Positions 9,539-55,169 of a stretch of DNA of 64,000 nucleotides are shown piece by piece (the first letter of the stretch is position 1; every line of letters starts with the position of its first letter). Made by a program: the position numbers and the translations under genes. The DNA lies in the NCBI GenBank assembly GCA_016219275.1, contig JACRBM010000101.1:1-64000 (forward strand). The letters run 5' to 3'. Below the pieces are notes generated by a model. It was not told the DNA's origin. It saw only the letters and a program-made list of their open reading frames with translations, and did not search any database. Origin of the DNA: Chloroflexota bacterium (GTDB lineage: Bacteria > Chloroflexota > Anaerolineae > UBA4142).

Positions 9539-9712
9539 CCTCTCATCTACCAGAAACTTTCTGCCGGAATTGGCACCTTGTTTGGAAGGTGGAGGTTAGA
9601 AGTTAGAAGATGGATGCACGGGCTTGCCGACTTCTAATTTCCAATTTCCAACATCCAGACGGGTTGCCGAGGCTTCATAGGGCCGATCCCTCCGCCTCTC
9701 TGGATAAGAGTA
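9539..9712 (-). ncRNA. SAM-I (S-box) riboswitch aptamer
   Basis: Read on the minus strand the S-box signature is complete: CTCTTATCCAGAGAGGCGGA, the GGCCCTATGAAGCCTCGGCA block with the kink-turn, AAGGTGCCAATTCC, GCAGAAA and the closing GATGAGAGG. P1 is formed by the 5' CTCTTATC and 3' GATGAGAG parts. It precedes a terminator and a transsulfuration-family gene, as expected for an S-adenosylmethionine-repressed sulfur gene. Confidence 0.95.
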
Positions 9713-17985: not shown

Positions 17986-18024
17986 AGACCCGAAGGGTCG
18001 CTTGCGCGGAAACCCTTCGGGTCT
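17986..18024. repeat. 39-bp palindromic repeat, copy A (intergenic)
   Basis: AGACCCGAAGGGT and ACCCTTCGGGTCT arms of 13 bp around a 13-base centre. A second copy of identical length and nearly identical centre occurs inside a coding sequence at 52601-52639. Here it lies between the binding-protein stop and the cupin start, where it may also stabilise the upstream mRNA. Confidence 0.85.
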
Positions 18025-48200: not shown

Positions 48201-51200
48201 ATGATTTGCTTCAACTGTAACACTCCCAATCGCGACCAAGCCAACTTTTGCAAACATTGCGGAACTCTGCTCGTCCAAAATTGTCCGCGCTGTAATTCTG
48301 CGCTTTCCAATGACGCGAGTTTTTGCGACCACTGTGGACTCCGGCTTGTGGATTCGTCCGGCTTGTTCTGGCAAGCCGCGCGGCTGGAATCGCCGCGCGC
48401 GCAACGCATTTCCCCGACCCAGCCAGTAACGCCACCCCGTGAAGCAACCGCACCTGCGCCGATTCCGCCAAGCGCGCCGGCGAAACCGGAACCGCGCGCT
48501 TTACATCCCGCCACGTCAGAATCGCGCCTCGAACAATACATTCCCCAGGAACTAAAAGCGAAACTCGACGCGGCGCGCACGAGCGGCGAAATGGTCGGCG
48601 AGCGCAAACAAGTCACCGTGCTGTTCAGCGATATTGTCAACTCCACCGCGCTCGCGGAAAAGATGGATCCGGAAGAATGGGGCGAAATCGTTTCCGGCGC
48701 GCATCGCCGCGTGAGTGAAGCAGTCTATCGCTACGAAGGCACCATCGCGCAATTGCTGGGCGATGGCGTGCTCGCGTTCTTCGGCGCGCCGATCACGCAC
48801 GAGGATGATCCCGTCCGCGCGGTTCATGCCGCGCTCGACATTCTGAAACAAATCCGCGCGTATCGCGATGAACTGCTCGCCAAAAAACGCGTCCCCGATT
48901 TTGAAATGCGCATCGGGTTGAACACCGGGCTGGTCGTCGTCGGCAACATTGGCACCGATCTGCACATGGAATATCTCGCGATTGGCGATGCCATCAATCT
49001 TGCCGCGCGGATGGAACAAACCGCGCAACCCGGCACGGTGCAGATCGCGCCGGACACACACAAACAGGTCAAGTCCTTTTTCGAATTGGAAGACCTGGGC
49101 GGTATCGAAGTCAAAGGCAAGCGCGAACCCGTGCCCGCGTACCGCGTGCTGGGGCGCAAAGAGAGCGCGGCGCGTCCGCGCGGCATCGAAGGTCTGCACG
49201 CCGAGATGGTCGGACGCGAACAAGAACTACTGACCTTGCGCGGGATCATCACGGATCTCAAGCAGGGCGTGGGGCGAATCGTGTGCGTGTTGGGCGAAGC
49301 GGGCTTGGGCAAAACACGTCTCGTGAGCGAGGCGCATAAAGCGTTCAACGAACTGGGCAACGCCGCGGGCAAGTGGTACGAAACGACGAGTCTCTCGTAC
49401 GAAACCAATCAGGCGTACGGATTATTCCAACACTTGATTCGCCGCGTGAGCGAAATCGGCTATGAAGACCCGCCGCGCATCGTGCGTGAAAAACTCGCGT
49501 CGTTGGTCGAAGGTGTGGCGGAGGAACGTCGCGCGTCGGCGCGCCAACTCTTTGACGCGTTGTTCGGCTTGGAGAGCGAAACCGCGGGCGCGCCGCTTGA
49601 CAGTGAAACGTTCAAACGCGAGCTGTGCCTAGCAATGCGCGATTGGTGGCGCGCGCGCTTTTCCCAGCAACCGACCGTTCTGGTTTTCGACGATATGCAC
49701 TGGAGCGATGCGTCCTCCATCGAAACCTTGCGCCAACTTTTGGTGTTGACCGAAGAGATTCCGCTCGTCGTGATGTGCGTTCTGCGTTCCGAGCGTCAAT
49801 CGCCCGGCTGGCAGATCAAGGTCGCTGCCGACACCGAGTATCAACATCGTTACACCGAAGTCGCTCTACGCCCGCTCTCCGATGCGGAGAGCAACGAACT
49901 CTTGAATCGCTTGCTGGCGATGCCGGAACTGCCCACGCGTTTGCGCGCGAGTATTCTCGAAAAATCCGGCGGCAATCCGTTCTTCATCGAAGAAGTCGTG
50001 CGGACGTTGATTGACAGCGGCGCGGTCATCGCCGAAGAGCGGACCGTCAACGGCGTGACGCGGCGAGTGTGGAAGGCGACGAGCGCGGGCGCGGACTTTG
50101 CCATCCCCGATAATTTACAATCGCTGTTAGCGGCGCGGATGGATCGGCTCGAAGACGCGACGCGCGCGACGTTGCAAATCGCCTCGGTCATCGGGCGTTC
50201 GTTCTATCGGCGCGTTTTGCAATTGGTGGATGAAGCAAGCCAGGATGTGGATAAACACCTGGGCACGCTGATCCGTCTCGAAATGATTCGCGAAGCCGCG
50301 CGCGTGCCCGAACTGGAATACGCATTTCGCAATCCCTTGACCCAGGAAGCAGTGTACAAAACGATCCTGCTGAAACGCCGCCGCGCGTTTCATCGCCGCG
50401 TTGGTGAAGTGATGGAGACCTTGTTCGCGGAGCGGTTGGAAGGATTGTATGGCTTGCTAGCATACCACTTTACGCAGGCGGGCGAACGCGCCAAAGCCAT
50501 CGTGTACGCGCGCCAAGCCGCACAGCAAGCGGTCGCGGTGTACGCGTACGATGAAGCCATCCAGAATCTTCGCCACGCGCTCGAGTTGATCGAGCCAGGC
50601 GATCAAACCGAGATTCATCTGGGATTAATCGAAGAGCTGGCAGACGTGTACCGGCTCGTGCGCGATTTCGCGCAGGCGATCGCGCTCTACCGGCAAGCGC
50701 TCGATTTGTCGCGCGAGATGAAGGGCGACAAGATTATCGTGGTGCGTTTGCATCGCAAGATCATCCAAAGCGTAACCGATGCGAAATGGTCGGTGGACGC
50801 GGCAGTGTATCGCCAGGTGAGCGAAATCCGGATGGAATCGCGCGCACAGGTGGAAGAAAATTTGCGAACGCTGACCAGCGCGCCCCCGCACCCAGAAACC
50901 GTGCAACTCCTCACCGCGCTTTCGATAGATGCGTGGCGCAACCAGACGCCGCCCGATTGGGATATCGCACAACGGTTCGCGCAGAGCGCGGTGGAGATGG
51001 CAGAGCAACTCGACGATGCCGGGATGTTGTCCAAAGCATTGGGCGCGCTGGCGAATGTGTTGGACGGGCGCAGTCTGTTGCGCGAGCATTTGGATTTGGC
51101 GAATCGCCGCTTGGAGATCAGCCGCGCGGCAAATTTGGGCGACGCGCGCGAAAGCATTGATGCGTTGCGCGGGGTCGGCGTCGCGCTGATGTATTTTGGC

Positions 51201-51404
51201 GAATACGCCCAAGCTCTGCCCTATCTGGCGGAAGCGGAAAATGATGCCGCGCGTATCCAGGCGACGGAGCAACAGGTGAATACGATCGGGATTCAAGCGC
51301 ACTGTTTGTTTCGCTTGGATCGGTGGGACGCGGTTCTCGCAACGGAAGAACGCTGGCGCGACCTCGAGCGACGGTATTCGCGCGAGCGTGTGGGCGAGAC
51401 CTGA
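48201..51404 (+). CDS. Zinc-ribbon / class III cyclase / AAA ATPase / TPR protein
   Basis: 1067 residues to the first in-frame UGA. Two zinc ribbons open the protein (C3, C6, C17, C20 and C28, C31, C42, C45), then a Pro/Ala linker. A class III adenylyl/guanylyl cyclase domain (about 133-310) has the metal-binding segments VTVLFSDIVNST and LLGDGVLAFFGAP. Next come the AAA-type ATPase with Walker A GEAGLGKTRLV and FDDMHWSDASS (Walker B), and TPR-like helices. The protein should link nucleotide cycling to regulated protein contacts. ATG 48201 is chosen because the earlier ATG at 48144 lies in the -35 box. The reading frame continues beyond the UGA at 51402-51404 (next entry). Confidence 0.88.
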   Translation: MICFNCNTPNRDQANFCKHCGTLLVQNCPRCNSALSNDASFCDHCGLRLVDSSGLFWQAARLESPRAQRISPTQPVTPPREATAPAPIPPSAPAKPEPRALHPATSESRLEQYIPQELKAKLDAARTSGEMVGERKQVTVLFSDIVNSTALAEKMDPEEWGEIVSGAHRRVSEAVYRYEGTIAQLLGDGVLAFFGAPITHEDDPVRAVHAALDILKQIRAYRDELLAKKRVPDFEMRIGLNTGLVVVGNIGTDLHMEYLAIGDAINLAARMEQTAQPGTVQIAPDTHKQVKSFFELEDLGGIEVKGKREPVPAYRVLGRKESAARPRGIEGLHAEMVGREQELLTLRGIITDLKQGVGRIVCVLGEAGLGKTRLVSEAHKAFNELGNAAGKWYETTSLSYETNQAYGLFQHLIRRVSEIGYEDPPRIVREKLASLVEGVAEERRASARQLFDALFGLESETAGAPLDSETFKRELCLAMRDWWRARFSQQPTVLVFDDMHWSDASSIETLRQLLVLTEEIPLVVMCVLRSERQSPGWQIKVAADTEYQHRYTEVALRPLSDAESNELLNRLLAMPELPTRLRASILEKSGGNPFFIEEVVRTLIDSGAVIAEERTVNGVTRRVWKATSAGADFAIPDNLQSLLAARMDRLEDATRATLQIASVIGRSFYRRVLQLVDEASQDVDKHLGTLIRLEMIREAARVPELEYAFRNPLTQEAVYKTILLKRRRAFHRRVGEVMETLFAERLEGLYGLLAYHFTQAGERAKAIVYARQAAQQAVAVYAYDEAIQNLRHALELIEPGDQTEIHLGLIEELADVYRLVRDFAQAIALYRQALDLSREMKGDKIIVVRLHRKIIQSVTDAKWSVDAAVYRQVSEIRMESRAQVEENLRTLTSAPPHPETVQLLTALSIDAWRNQTPPDWDIAQRFAQSAVEMAEQLDDAGMLSKALGALANVLDGRSLLREHLDLANRRLEISRAANLGDARESIDALRGVGVALMYFGEYAQALPYLAEAENDAARIQATEQQVNTIGIQAHCLFRLDRWDAVLATEERWRDLERRYSRERVGET

Positions 51405-52052
51405 TTTTTCGTCGCGCTGAGCGCGACGGTCCACGCGTTGCGTGGCGAGCAGGAACGAGCTCGAGTCTATACCCAGGAATCGTACGCCTATATGATCGGA
51501 ATGTCTGGGCAACCCGATCAATGGCAGAGGAATCAGTTTTACTGAAGGTCTCTGCCCTTGCAGGCAGAGGGCGAGTTCGCTCTCGTCAAAGAAAACATCG
51601 AGCGCGCGCTCGGATTATCGGGGCAGCCGGTCAAGCGCGGCTCGATGGCGCACGACCACGACGTGTATATGATGTTGGCGGACGGCGCGGCGCGCGCGCG
51701 CGATCTGATCGCGTTACGCGCGTACACGCCGCGGCTGGAAGAACTCGCGCAGCGTGACGGTCACAAATTGTATCTTGCGATTGCACATCGCGCATGGGGG
51801 GTCGCACATGCGCTAGCGGACGAGTCCGCTAAAGCGGAAACGCGTCTGAATCAAGCGCGTGAATTATTCCAAGGATTGGAGACACGATGGCAAATCGCGC
51901 GCACAATGTACGAACTAGGTGAACTAGAACAGGCGCGGCACAATGTCGCGGCGGCGCGTGATTGGTTCGCGCAAGCACTCACGCTCTTCGAGGCGATGTC
52001 CGCGCGACCGGACGCAGACCGCACCCGCGCGGCGTTGGCGGCGTTACAATAA
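51405..52052 (+). pseudogene. Same-frame C-terminal continuation beyond two UGA codons
   Basis: The frame of the cyclase/ATPase gene runs on without a shift. After UGA 51402-51404 come 46 sense codons (FFVALSATVHALRGE...), then a second UGA at 51543-51545, then a further 168 codons of TPR-like sequence (SLPLQAEGEFALVKENIERA...) to the true stop at 52050-52052. Both inter-stop segments look like coding TPR helices. Each UGA is followed within five bases by a perfect hairpin: 51410-51428 (8-bp stem, 3-base loop) and 51550-51569 (7-bp stem, 6-base loop). Either the gene has two nonsense mutations, or UGA is read through or recoded. The ordinary view is a decaying gene whose C-terminus might restart at an internal ATG near 51558. 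Confidence 0.75.
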
Positions 52053-52078: not shown

Positions 52079-52399
52079 ATGAACGATGAAATGCTCAAGG
52101 TGAATATCTTGACGATCACAGTGGCAGGATTTTTGATGTTGTTGACCGGTTTGTTGCTCTATCTTTTCCGCTCGACTGTTTCTGAAAACATGCGTTTCAT
52201 TTTGCCGATTCCCCCGCTCGGCGTCGCCGCCTATGTCTTTGTGTTCAACTTGTTCAGTCATTACCATGGGAAATTGCCCGGCAACATTGGGGACACGCTC
52301 CGCGAACTGGTGCTCAGCGCAGTCATTGCAGGCATCATCTTTTGCGCGTTCATCGTGATCAACGTGGCAATTACCAATCTCCTCAAGGATATCCTGTAG
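52079..52399 (+). CDS. Small integral membrane protein
   Basis: A 106-residue protein with three predicted membrane helices (about 9-29, 42-60 and 80-102). GAGGG precedes ATG 52079 by six bases. I do not recognise the family. It lies between two large signalling genes, 27 bases after the cyclase reading frame ends. Confidence 0.7.
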   Translation: MNDEMLKVNILTITVAGFLMLLTGLLLYLFRSTVSENMRFILPIPPLGVAAYVFVFNLFSHYHGKLPGNIGDTLRELVLSAVIAGIIFCAFIVINVAITNLLKDIL

Positions 52400-52502: not shown

Positions 52503-55169
52503 ATGCCAGAAGATAAAGCGCCGGTGAAGAACAACCTGCCAATTCCTCTCACGCGCTTCATCGGGCGCGAGAAAGAAATCGCCGAGGTCAAGCGGCTGCT
52601 AGACCCTTCGGGTTTTCGCGCAAGCGACCCGAAGGGTCTGGGTACGCGCTTGCTCACACTTACCGGCGCGGGCGGTGCGGGCAAAACGCGGCTCGCGTTA
52701 CAAGTTGCCGACGATCTACTCGCCGCGTTTCCCGATGGTGTCTGGCTGATCGAGTTAGCGTCGCTCGCGGATCCCGCGCTCGTTCCGCACTCTGTCGCGT
52801 CCATTTTCGATTTGCGTCAAGCTGGTCAAGTCACGGCGATTGATCTGCTCAAGAATTTTCTCCACGCGAAAAATGGACTCCTTGTGTTGGACAATTGCGA
52901 GCATGTGATTCATGCTTGCGCGCAATTAGTCGAGACACTTTTGACGAGTTGCCCCGATTTGAAAATTTTGGCGACGAGTCGCGAAGGATTGAATATCGCG
53001 GGCGAGATCACTTTTCGCGTGCCGCCGCTCGCGCTTCCGCATCTCCAACAATTACCGCCGCTCGAATCGTTCGCGCAGTTTGAAGCGATTCGCTTGTTCA
53101 TCGGGCGCGCGCGTGACGCGCGACCTGATTTTGAATTGACGAACGCGAACGCGCCAGCCATCGCGCAAATCTGCGCGCGCCTTGATGGGATGCCCCTCGC
53201 GCTCGAACTTGCTGCCGCGCGCGTCAAGACGTTGGCGGTCGAACAGATTGCCGCGCGGCTCGACGATTCGTTTCGATTGCTCACCGGTGGAAGTCGCACG
53301 GCTCTGCCGCGTCAACAAACTTTGCGCGCGGCGATGGATTGGAGCTATGATCTATTATCGGCGCAAGAACAGATCGCGTTGAATCGCGTGTCGGTGTTCG
53401 CGGGCGGGTGGACGCTTGAGGCGGCAGAGGCGATTTGCGCGGACGTGGTGACGCGGCGGCAGGATGACGCGGAGAATGAAATCATCGCGTCAGAGGTTTT
53501 TGATTTGCTATCGCGTCTCGTGGACAAATCGCTCGTGCTCGCGGAAACGCGCGGCGGCGCGACGCGCTATCGAATATTGGAGACGATTCGGCAATATGTC
53601 TGGGAGAAATTGGTCGAGTTGGGCGAACGCGAGAATGTGCAGAATCGCCATTTGGAATATTTTGTGAATCTGGCTGAAGAAGCCGAACCCAAACTGCGCG
53701 GCGCAGAGCAAGGGAGGTGGTTAAATCGTTTGGGCGCCGAGTTGGACAATTTCCGAGTCGCGCTCGATTGGTCAACCAGCACCCAGAAAATTCAAATGGG
53801 ATTACGCTTGGGAGGAGCGTTGTGGGATTTTTGGGGCAAGCGCGCTCTTTGGACTGAGGTGTACGAACGATTGGTCAGCTTGTTGAAAGGAAACGAAGGA
53901 AAAACACTGACGCGTGCAAACGCCTTACGCGTTGCCGCAGAAATGGCGAGTCGTTCTGGATATGCTAATGAGGTGCGTCCACTCTTTGAAGAAAGCATTC
54001 AGATTCTGCGGGACTTGGGTGAAGAAGGCAAGCATTGGCTTGGTCATACGCTGGCGCGCTACGCGTGGGCAAATCTTGATCGCGATCTTGTTCACGCATG
54101 CGCGCTTGCCAAAGAAAGCATCCAGACGAGTCGTCAAGCGGGCGATCTTTTTTGTTTAGCGTCCAGTCTATTTTCCCTGGGCTTGGTCATGCGGCGTCTC
54201 TCTGACTATGCAACATCGCGTTCTGCGCTTGAAGGGAGTGCAGCACTGTATAAAGAAATGCGAAACATGCACATGTACGCTCAAGTTCTAAACAACTTGG
54301 GAATGATTGATTACTTTGAAAAAAATCTGCCTCAGGCAAAGGATTACATCGAGCGAGCGTTGAGCATCCACCAAGAAATGGGTGACAAATTTGGCGCGGC
54401 AACGTCACGTCCGGCGTTGGGGGACATTGCGCGACGACAAGGCAACTATACGGAAGCAAGCGCGCTCTTGCAAAAGAATTTGTCGGTTCATCGCGATATG
54501 GGACAAGCCCATCAATTACTCGTCCTCGATTTGTACTACCTGGGTATGTTGGAACTGACCAGAGGAAACTTGGGCGAATCGAACAATTACTTGAAAGAAG
54601 GTATCGTGCAAGCGAGAAAAGGCGACCTCCGATACTATCTTCCATCCTTGATGGATGCGCTTGGCTACCTCGCCACCGTGGTGCAACTTCCCGAACGCGC
54701 GGCGCGGCTGTTTGGCGCGGCAGAGTTGTTGCGCGAACAATTGGGAACCCCGATGCCACCGGTCTATCGCGACGATTGCGAAAAATATCTTCCCCGTACG
54801 CGCGCCCAACTCGACGCCGCCGCCTTCAACGCGGCATGGGCAACAGGTCAAGCGATGACGGTAGAGCAAGCCATCGAGTTTGCCCTCGCCGAAATCAAAA
54901 TTCCCGATATGCCGGATGCGCCAGCACTCTCACCTCGCCAAGCCGCGAAAGAAAAATTCGGCGGACTGACCGCGCGCGAACGCGAGGTCGCCGCATTGAT
55001 CGCGCAAGGAAAATCGAATCGTGAGATTGCCGAAATGCTCGTGTTGAGTGAACGCACGATTGAAGGACACGTTGGCAACATTCTCGACAAGTTGGGTTTC
55101 AGCGCGCGCACACAGATTGCGGCGTGGGCGGTTGAGATAGGATTGTTTCAAAGCAACAAGCAATCGTGA
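52503..55169 (+). CDS. LuxR-type ATPase regulator (AfsR/LAL-like)
   Basis: An 888-residue signal-transduction ATPase: NB-ARC-like NTPase with Walker [12 protein letters not shown] (about 55-65) and [10 protein letters not shown] (Walker B), helical and TPR-like regions (about 330-780), and a C-terminal LuxR helix-turn-helix ([38 protein letters not shown]). Residues 34-46 ([13 protein letters not shown]) come from a 39-bp palindromic repeat inserted in frame just before the first beta strand of the NTPase. It should be an ATP-dependent transcription activator. The inducer is unknown. Confidence 0.93.
52601..52639. repeat. 39-bp palindromic repeat, copy B (inside a gene)
   Basis: AGACCCTTCGGGT and ACCCGAAGGGTCT arms of 13 bp. 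The centre and flanks match copy A (17986-18024 read on the other strand), with the arm tips GAA and TTC exchanged. Its length is a multiple of three, so it adds 13 codons to the ATPase gene without changing frame. Confidence 0.88.

Follow-up and report, generated by a model that had tools for sequence, protein, structure and literature searches.

A Chloroflexota STAND-type regulator gene with two in-frame UGA codons predicted to encode selenocysteines in its TPR sensor

The window, the whole stretch of 64,000 nucleotides of Chloroflexota DNA analyzed here, carries on its forward strand a gene (48201..52052) that runs from an ATG at 48201 to a TAA at 52050-52052 in a single frame, interrupted solely by TGA codons at 51402-51404 (UGA1) and 51543-51545 (UGA2). 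A preliminary description of this DNA had reported that the frame stays open past both UGAs to 52052, and re-reading it from 48201 bore this out. The full-length product has 1283 residues, two of them predicted selenocysteines (Sec1068 and Sec1115), with the Pfam domains DZR, Guanylate_cyc, AAA_16 and TPR. It begins with a double zinc ribbon (residues 3-46, 48207..48338, PF12773), followed by an adenylate/guanylate cyclase catalytic domain (residues 135-309, 48603..49127, PF00211, E 1.7e-25) and an AAA_16 or STAND-type ATPase domain (residues 336-524, 49206..49772, PF13191, E 8.6e-19). Residues 781-1283 (50541..52049) form a TPR sensor region in which both predicted selenocysteines lie. The AlphaFold2 model of this region (pLDDT 91.9, pTM 0.90) was matched by Foldseek to domain III of MalT (1hz4, TMt 0.70). 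This match points to a STAND-type regulator, and the order of domains, an AAA/NOD ATPase and then a MalT domain III-type TPR sensor, is the one that defines such proteins. Known regulators of this kind are further characterized by an inducer-driven switch from ADP to ATP and by multimerization. By the helix positions of the model, residue 1068 opens one A-type helix, residue 1115 lies in the next, and the nearly invariant Cys1035 (51303..51305, alignment column at least 90% conserved) lies in the preceding one.

Comparison of the gene neighborhood across copies gave no operon clue. The sole common neighbor is a 106-residue membrane protein encoded directly 3' of the gene (52079-52399), 75% conserved beside the copy of the relative G001 and not found near any other copy. 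A plasmid search matched other cyclase proteins, and these only in their N-terminal part. Elsewhere in the window, a SAM riboswitch (RF00162, 83.9 bits) is present at 9540-9710 on the minus strand. A perfect 13-bp palindrome, AGACCCTTCGGGT / ACCCGAAGGGTCT, occurs at 52601-52639 inside the ORF 52503-55169, where it apparently adds in-frame residues, and again at 17988-18022, which suggests a dispersed palindromic insert.

Homologs were searched for in 99 relatives and in two further sets, 396 genomes from the class and 400 from the phylum. An extra scan of one genome per species of GTDB 220 used two exact peptide patterns, which missed members that were found otherwise. Taxa were counted when the C-terminal region was present and readable, giving 17 (16 Chloroflexota and one probably misbinned contig); the candidate locus L116 (CP070811), whose Sec site is covered by a stretch of N, stands outside these 17. 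UGA2 is TGA in 17/17 taxa, in a context like NQHYU..LPL.AEGEFALV, and no homolog with Cys or another sense codon was found at this position among them. UGA1 is TGA in three taxa, namely the window genome, G001 (77% identical) and CP070639 'bin917', and TGC or TGT (Cys) in the remaining 14, with no other sense codon. This alternation with Cys codons alone is the signature of a classical Sec/Cys exchange. Of the residues that the preliminary description had envisaged at these positions in homologs (Cys, Trp or Arg), only Cys is seen at site 1, and no sense codon at all at site 2. Homologs that have an ordinary sense codon and lack the hairpins, which it had regarded as evidence against recoding, exist at site 1 only, and there the sense codon is Cys in every case. 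Two marks of selenoproteins can be recognized here: an in-frame UGA conserved together with coding sequence on both sides, and, for site 1 only, the Cys homologs known for bacterial selenoproteins. Distant TPR homologs from other parts of the phylum lack the Sec region. The tree of the carriers needs two changes at site 1 and, its deep forks being open, is compatible with one origin of Sec at this site as well as with more than one. The one copy outside Chloroflexota, from a 'Burkholderiaceae' MAG (G744/PR3, L117, JACSRS010000168), is close to the Anaerolineae SSC4 copy, and neither SelB nor tRNA-Sec was found in that genome; the contig therefore probably carries a misbinned Chloroflexota-type gene.

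The preliminary description had proposed as recoding signals a perfect 8-bp hairpin starting 5 nt after UGA1 and a perfect 7-bp hairpin starting 4 nt after UGA2. Both were confirmed in the sequence: hairpin 1 (51410..51428) reads CGTCGCGC-TGA-GCGCGACG, with the loop UGA, and hairpin 2 (51550..51569) reads CTCTGCC-CTTGCA-GGCAGAG. The conserved SECIS cores, however, lie about 20 nt further downstream, where a second hairpin just after each of these is better conserved and fits the bacterial SECIS (bSECIS) model. That model has a loop of 3-9 nt with a G in its first two positions, a stem of at least 4 bp, a loop position 16-37 nt after the UGA and an MFE of -7.5 or below (PMC13188914). The model scan of the window gene found core 1, CCACGC-GUU-GCGUGG (51431..51445), with a 6-bp stem and the GUU loop at +32 nt from UGA1, and core 2, GAGGGCG-AGUU-CGCUCUC (51567..51584), with the AGUU loop at +28 nt from UGA2 and an energy of -9.8. 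The site-1 stem of the window gene scores -8.0 in G001 and bin917. A few relatives fall short of the model, with -6.9 in G001 and Ww555 and a site-2 stem broken by one mismatch in G045.

Constraint on the RNA differs between the two kinds of site-1 gene. Each of the three UGA genes can form all 6/6 pairs of core 1, but the Cys genes only 2-5 of 6. Of the 13 codons that follow site 1, the three UGA genes have 11 in identical form, versus 0.21 elsewhere (P 4e-6), and Cys-Cys and UGA-Cys comparisons at this site gave no significant excess of synonymous identity. Site 1 is in this sense a natural experiment, the 45 nt after the codon being frozen at synonymous sites where it is UGA and drifting where it is Cys. 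At site 2, the sequence and spacing of core 2 are nearly invariant throughout the 17 taxa. Among the 333 windows of the TPR region, the one covering codons +7 to +13 past UGA2 has the top excess of synonymous conservation. Covariation of the hairpins in homologs, suggested earlier as a check, was seen in part: the site-2 score (0.182) exceeds that of shuffled alignments (0.114, 1/500) and also that of slid controls, but compensatory change is limited because the stem hardly varies. Tested against synonymous shuffles, the SECIS core scores are individually modest (p mostly 0.004-0.1, some not significant). Folded alone, the sequence of the window genome gives an MFE structure that favors the first hairpin and a different register at the expense of the conserved core; at site 2, three bases are contested between the first hairpin and the core. 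Rfam returned no match to the hairpin elements.

The two first-described hairpins fold only modestly better than dinucleotide shuffles (z -1.43 for hairpin 1 and -2.59 for hairpin 2), and in palindrome-rich DNA they prove little by themselves. Among the UGA-bearing genes, hairpin 1 too is frozen at synonymous sites, and it may be part of the site-1 SECIS element. In hairpin 2, at least three of the inner four pairs form in 13/17 taxa, with some compensatory change, and 0-2 of the four form in the SARP-type group. We rejected these hairpins as the SECIS elements proper, since their loops are too near the UGA, the one at site 2 is less conserved than the core, and the elements of SelD favor the later hairpin. 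Probably they contribute no more than a part of the SECIS element, possibly an accessory one.

The sel genes, whose presence had been named as a further check, are all in the window genome: it encodes SelA (585 bits), SelB (335 bits), SelD (366 bits) and a tRNA-Sec with anticodon TCA (UCA; 70.6 bits), the set expected in a genome with selenoproteins. SelB scores above the family cut-off in 16/17 carriers and is also present in 82/99 relatives, so the machinery is a necessary condition that does not discriminate. SelA and SelD were not detected in G334, and this gap and that of G744/PR3 probably reflect incompleteness and misbinning. No tRNA-Sec above the cut-off was found in G008 (69% complete), and the match in G307 (48.8 bits) is barely above threshold. 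SelD itself carries an in-frame TGA in the window genome and nine other carriers (L127-L136, ten Chloroflexota; context CAGUxxK), which means that these cells must decode UGA as Sec anyway. SelD also provides a positive control from within the same genomes: an (A)GUU-type loop with its stem follows most SelD UGAs of the carriers at +32/33. The two genes are alike in their in-frame UGA, their GC-rich stem with an (A)GUU loop about 32 nt on (in most of the SelD genes) and the SelB and tRNA-Sec of the same genomes; SelD differs in being an unrelated enzyme with one Sec, which is catalytic.

Taken together, the conserved UGA, the Cys exchange, the RNA-level constraint, the Sec machinery and purifying selection (see below) strongly support the assignment of selenocysteine, and we predict with high confidence that both UGAs are decoded as this residue. 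SelB and tRNA-Sec would insert it at both codons, guided in each case by a SECIS hairpin whose (A)GUU apical loop lies about 28-32 nt past the UGA. At site 2, Sec is predicted from the machinery, the SECIS element and the analogy with site 1, and this site appears to be obligately Sec.

What the residues might do is suggested by the architecture of the family. The output domain is a cyclase in the window gene, bin917, G307, G220 and G019, a C-terminal LuxR-type HTH in G030 and G008, an N-terminal SARP/BTAD domain in G335, MAG39, G049 and PR3, and an N-terminal HTH_31 domain in a Litorilinea MAG. MalT, AfsR and PH0952 have the same ATPase core and TPR sensor (PMC6468293, PMC10936776), and LuxR or SARP outputs are found in the selenoprotein relatives; unlike these known proteins, the family has predicted Sec in the sensor, and the window gene has a cyclase output. 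In MalT and AfsR, contacts between TPR and NOD are autoinhibitory (PMC6468293, PMC10936776). The window protein would be laid out as a cyclase output, an AAA/NOD switch and a TPR sensor, with selenocysteines in neighboring repeats, one repeat past the conserved Cys. By analogy with MalT and AfsR, these Cys and Sec residues would sense a redox, electrophile or metal signal that releases the autoinhibited ATPase, and the released ATPase would start cAMP/cGMP synthesis here and transcriptional outputs in the relatives. Such a redox, electrophile or metal switch on an autoinhibited ATPase is the most likely role. We give about even chances to the broader proposal that this STAND family perceives a chemical signal through Sec in its TPR sensor, as one module combined with cyclase, LuxR-type, SARP and HTH_31 outputs, with Sec as a signal-perception rather than a catalytic residue.

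The UGAs could instead work as a selenium-status switch between Sec insertion and termination: cells supplied with selenium would make a full-length autoinhibited sensor, cells lacking it a truncated regulator, and the chemistry of the residues would be secondary. UGA-Sec genes in general give less full-length product under selenium shortage. The autoinhibitory TPR and NOD contacts of MalT and AfsR would suit such a switch, as would the N-terminal output of the cyclase, SARP and HTH_31 types. We nevertheless consider it improbable: the Sec position is identical whether the output domain precedes or follows it, which favors a chemical role in the sensor over truncation control, and site 1 holds nothing but Cys or Sec, again pointing to chemistry.

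Far less probable is programmed readthrough, in which the hairpins would stimulate decoding of the UGA by a near-cognate tRNA (for Trp, Arg or Cys), with a minor C-terminally extended isoform as the product. A hairpin does lie immediately 3' of each UGA, and a truncated form would retain the cyclase and the ATPase. The bases after UGA2, however, vary freely (AGG, CAC, GCC, CTG), without the conserved 3' stop context of readthrough genes, and Cys is the sole sense alternative at site 1. In addition, the element is similar to the SECIS of SelD in these genomes, and LuxR-type members have their output domain after the UGA, so that their short product would lack an output.

The preliminary description had left a choice between recoding or readthrough and a gene killed twice by nonsense mutation in a palindrome-rich genome. 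Recoding is strongly supported, and the second alternative is refuted by the conserved UGA, the Cys exchange, selection and the machinery. Purifying selection past UGA1, whose loss would have spoken for a dead gene, is retained: in the comparison of the window gene with G001, dN/dS (NG86) comes to 0.07 for the stretch from UGA1 to UGA2 and to 0.20 for the part beyond UGA2. The cyclase has 0.09, the ATPase 0.18 and the TPR sequence ahead of UGA1 0.20; all these ratios are rough because synonymous distances are near or above 1. As dN/dS is not raised after the UGAs, a dead 3' end is ruled out. Some relatives are indeed damaged, with broken frames in G049 and an extra in-frame TAA in the G015 orthologue (L110 / G015 C85), between the residues corresponding to 927 and 929; the latter is possibly a recent pseudogene or an assembly error. 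Other palindromes also occur near the gene. The codon is nevertheless UGA in 17 independently assembled taxa of about 40-75% identity, across genera and families, and the best intact genes have no further in-frame TGA inside the conserved protein. We therefore give practically no credence to a pseudogene or to a sequencing or assembly error. Equally implausible are two proteins made by termination at the UGA and re-initiation just downstream: several taxa have a TTG or ATG a few codons past UGA2, but others have CTG, CAG or AAG there, and the UGA lies inside a predicted TPR helix (model 330-342) with invariant residues flanking both sides.

Selenocysteine insertion is a known mechanism; the family, and the placement of Sec in a signalling sensor, appear to be new. 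A 2026 review catalogs 119 prokaryotic selenoprotein families (PMC13188914), none of which is a selenocysteine STAND protein, and its Table 1 lists no family with cyclase, AAA/STAND, TPR, LuxR or SARP domains. These families have UGA recoding by bacterial SECIS in common with the window protein, and a few have two Sec. Unlike it, they are mostly redox enzymes, Trx-fold or transport proteins. NCBIfam gave no selenoprotein match above cut-off, the best match being TIGR03903 (267 bits versus a cut-off of 706), which is not a selenoprotein. No report of TPR or Chloroflexota selenoproteins was found among the openly accessible journal papers searched.

The gene would represent a Chloroflexota selenoprotein family that is not in the catalog and whose type is unexpected, made of large regulators and not of redox enzymes. 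Standard annotation will truncate its proteins at the UGA. Since site 2 is predicted Sec in every gene found and has no Cys counterpart, methods based on Cys homologs would tend to miss the family; if site 2 is obligately Sec, the family would be hidden from searches for Cys/UGA pairs. The contrast at site 1, frozen with UGA and drifting with Cys, makes selenium-based signalling in these bacteria directly testable.
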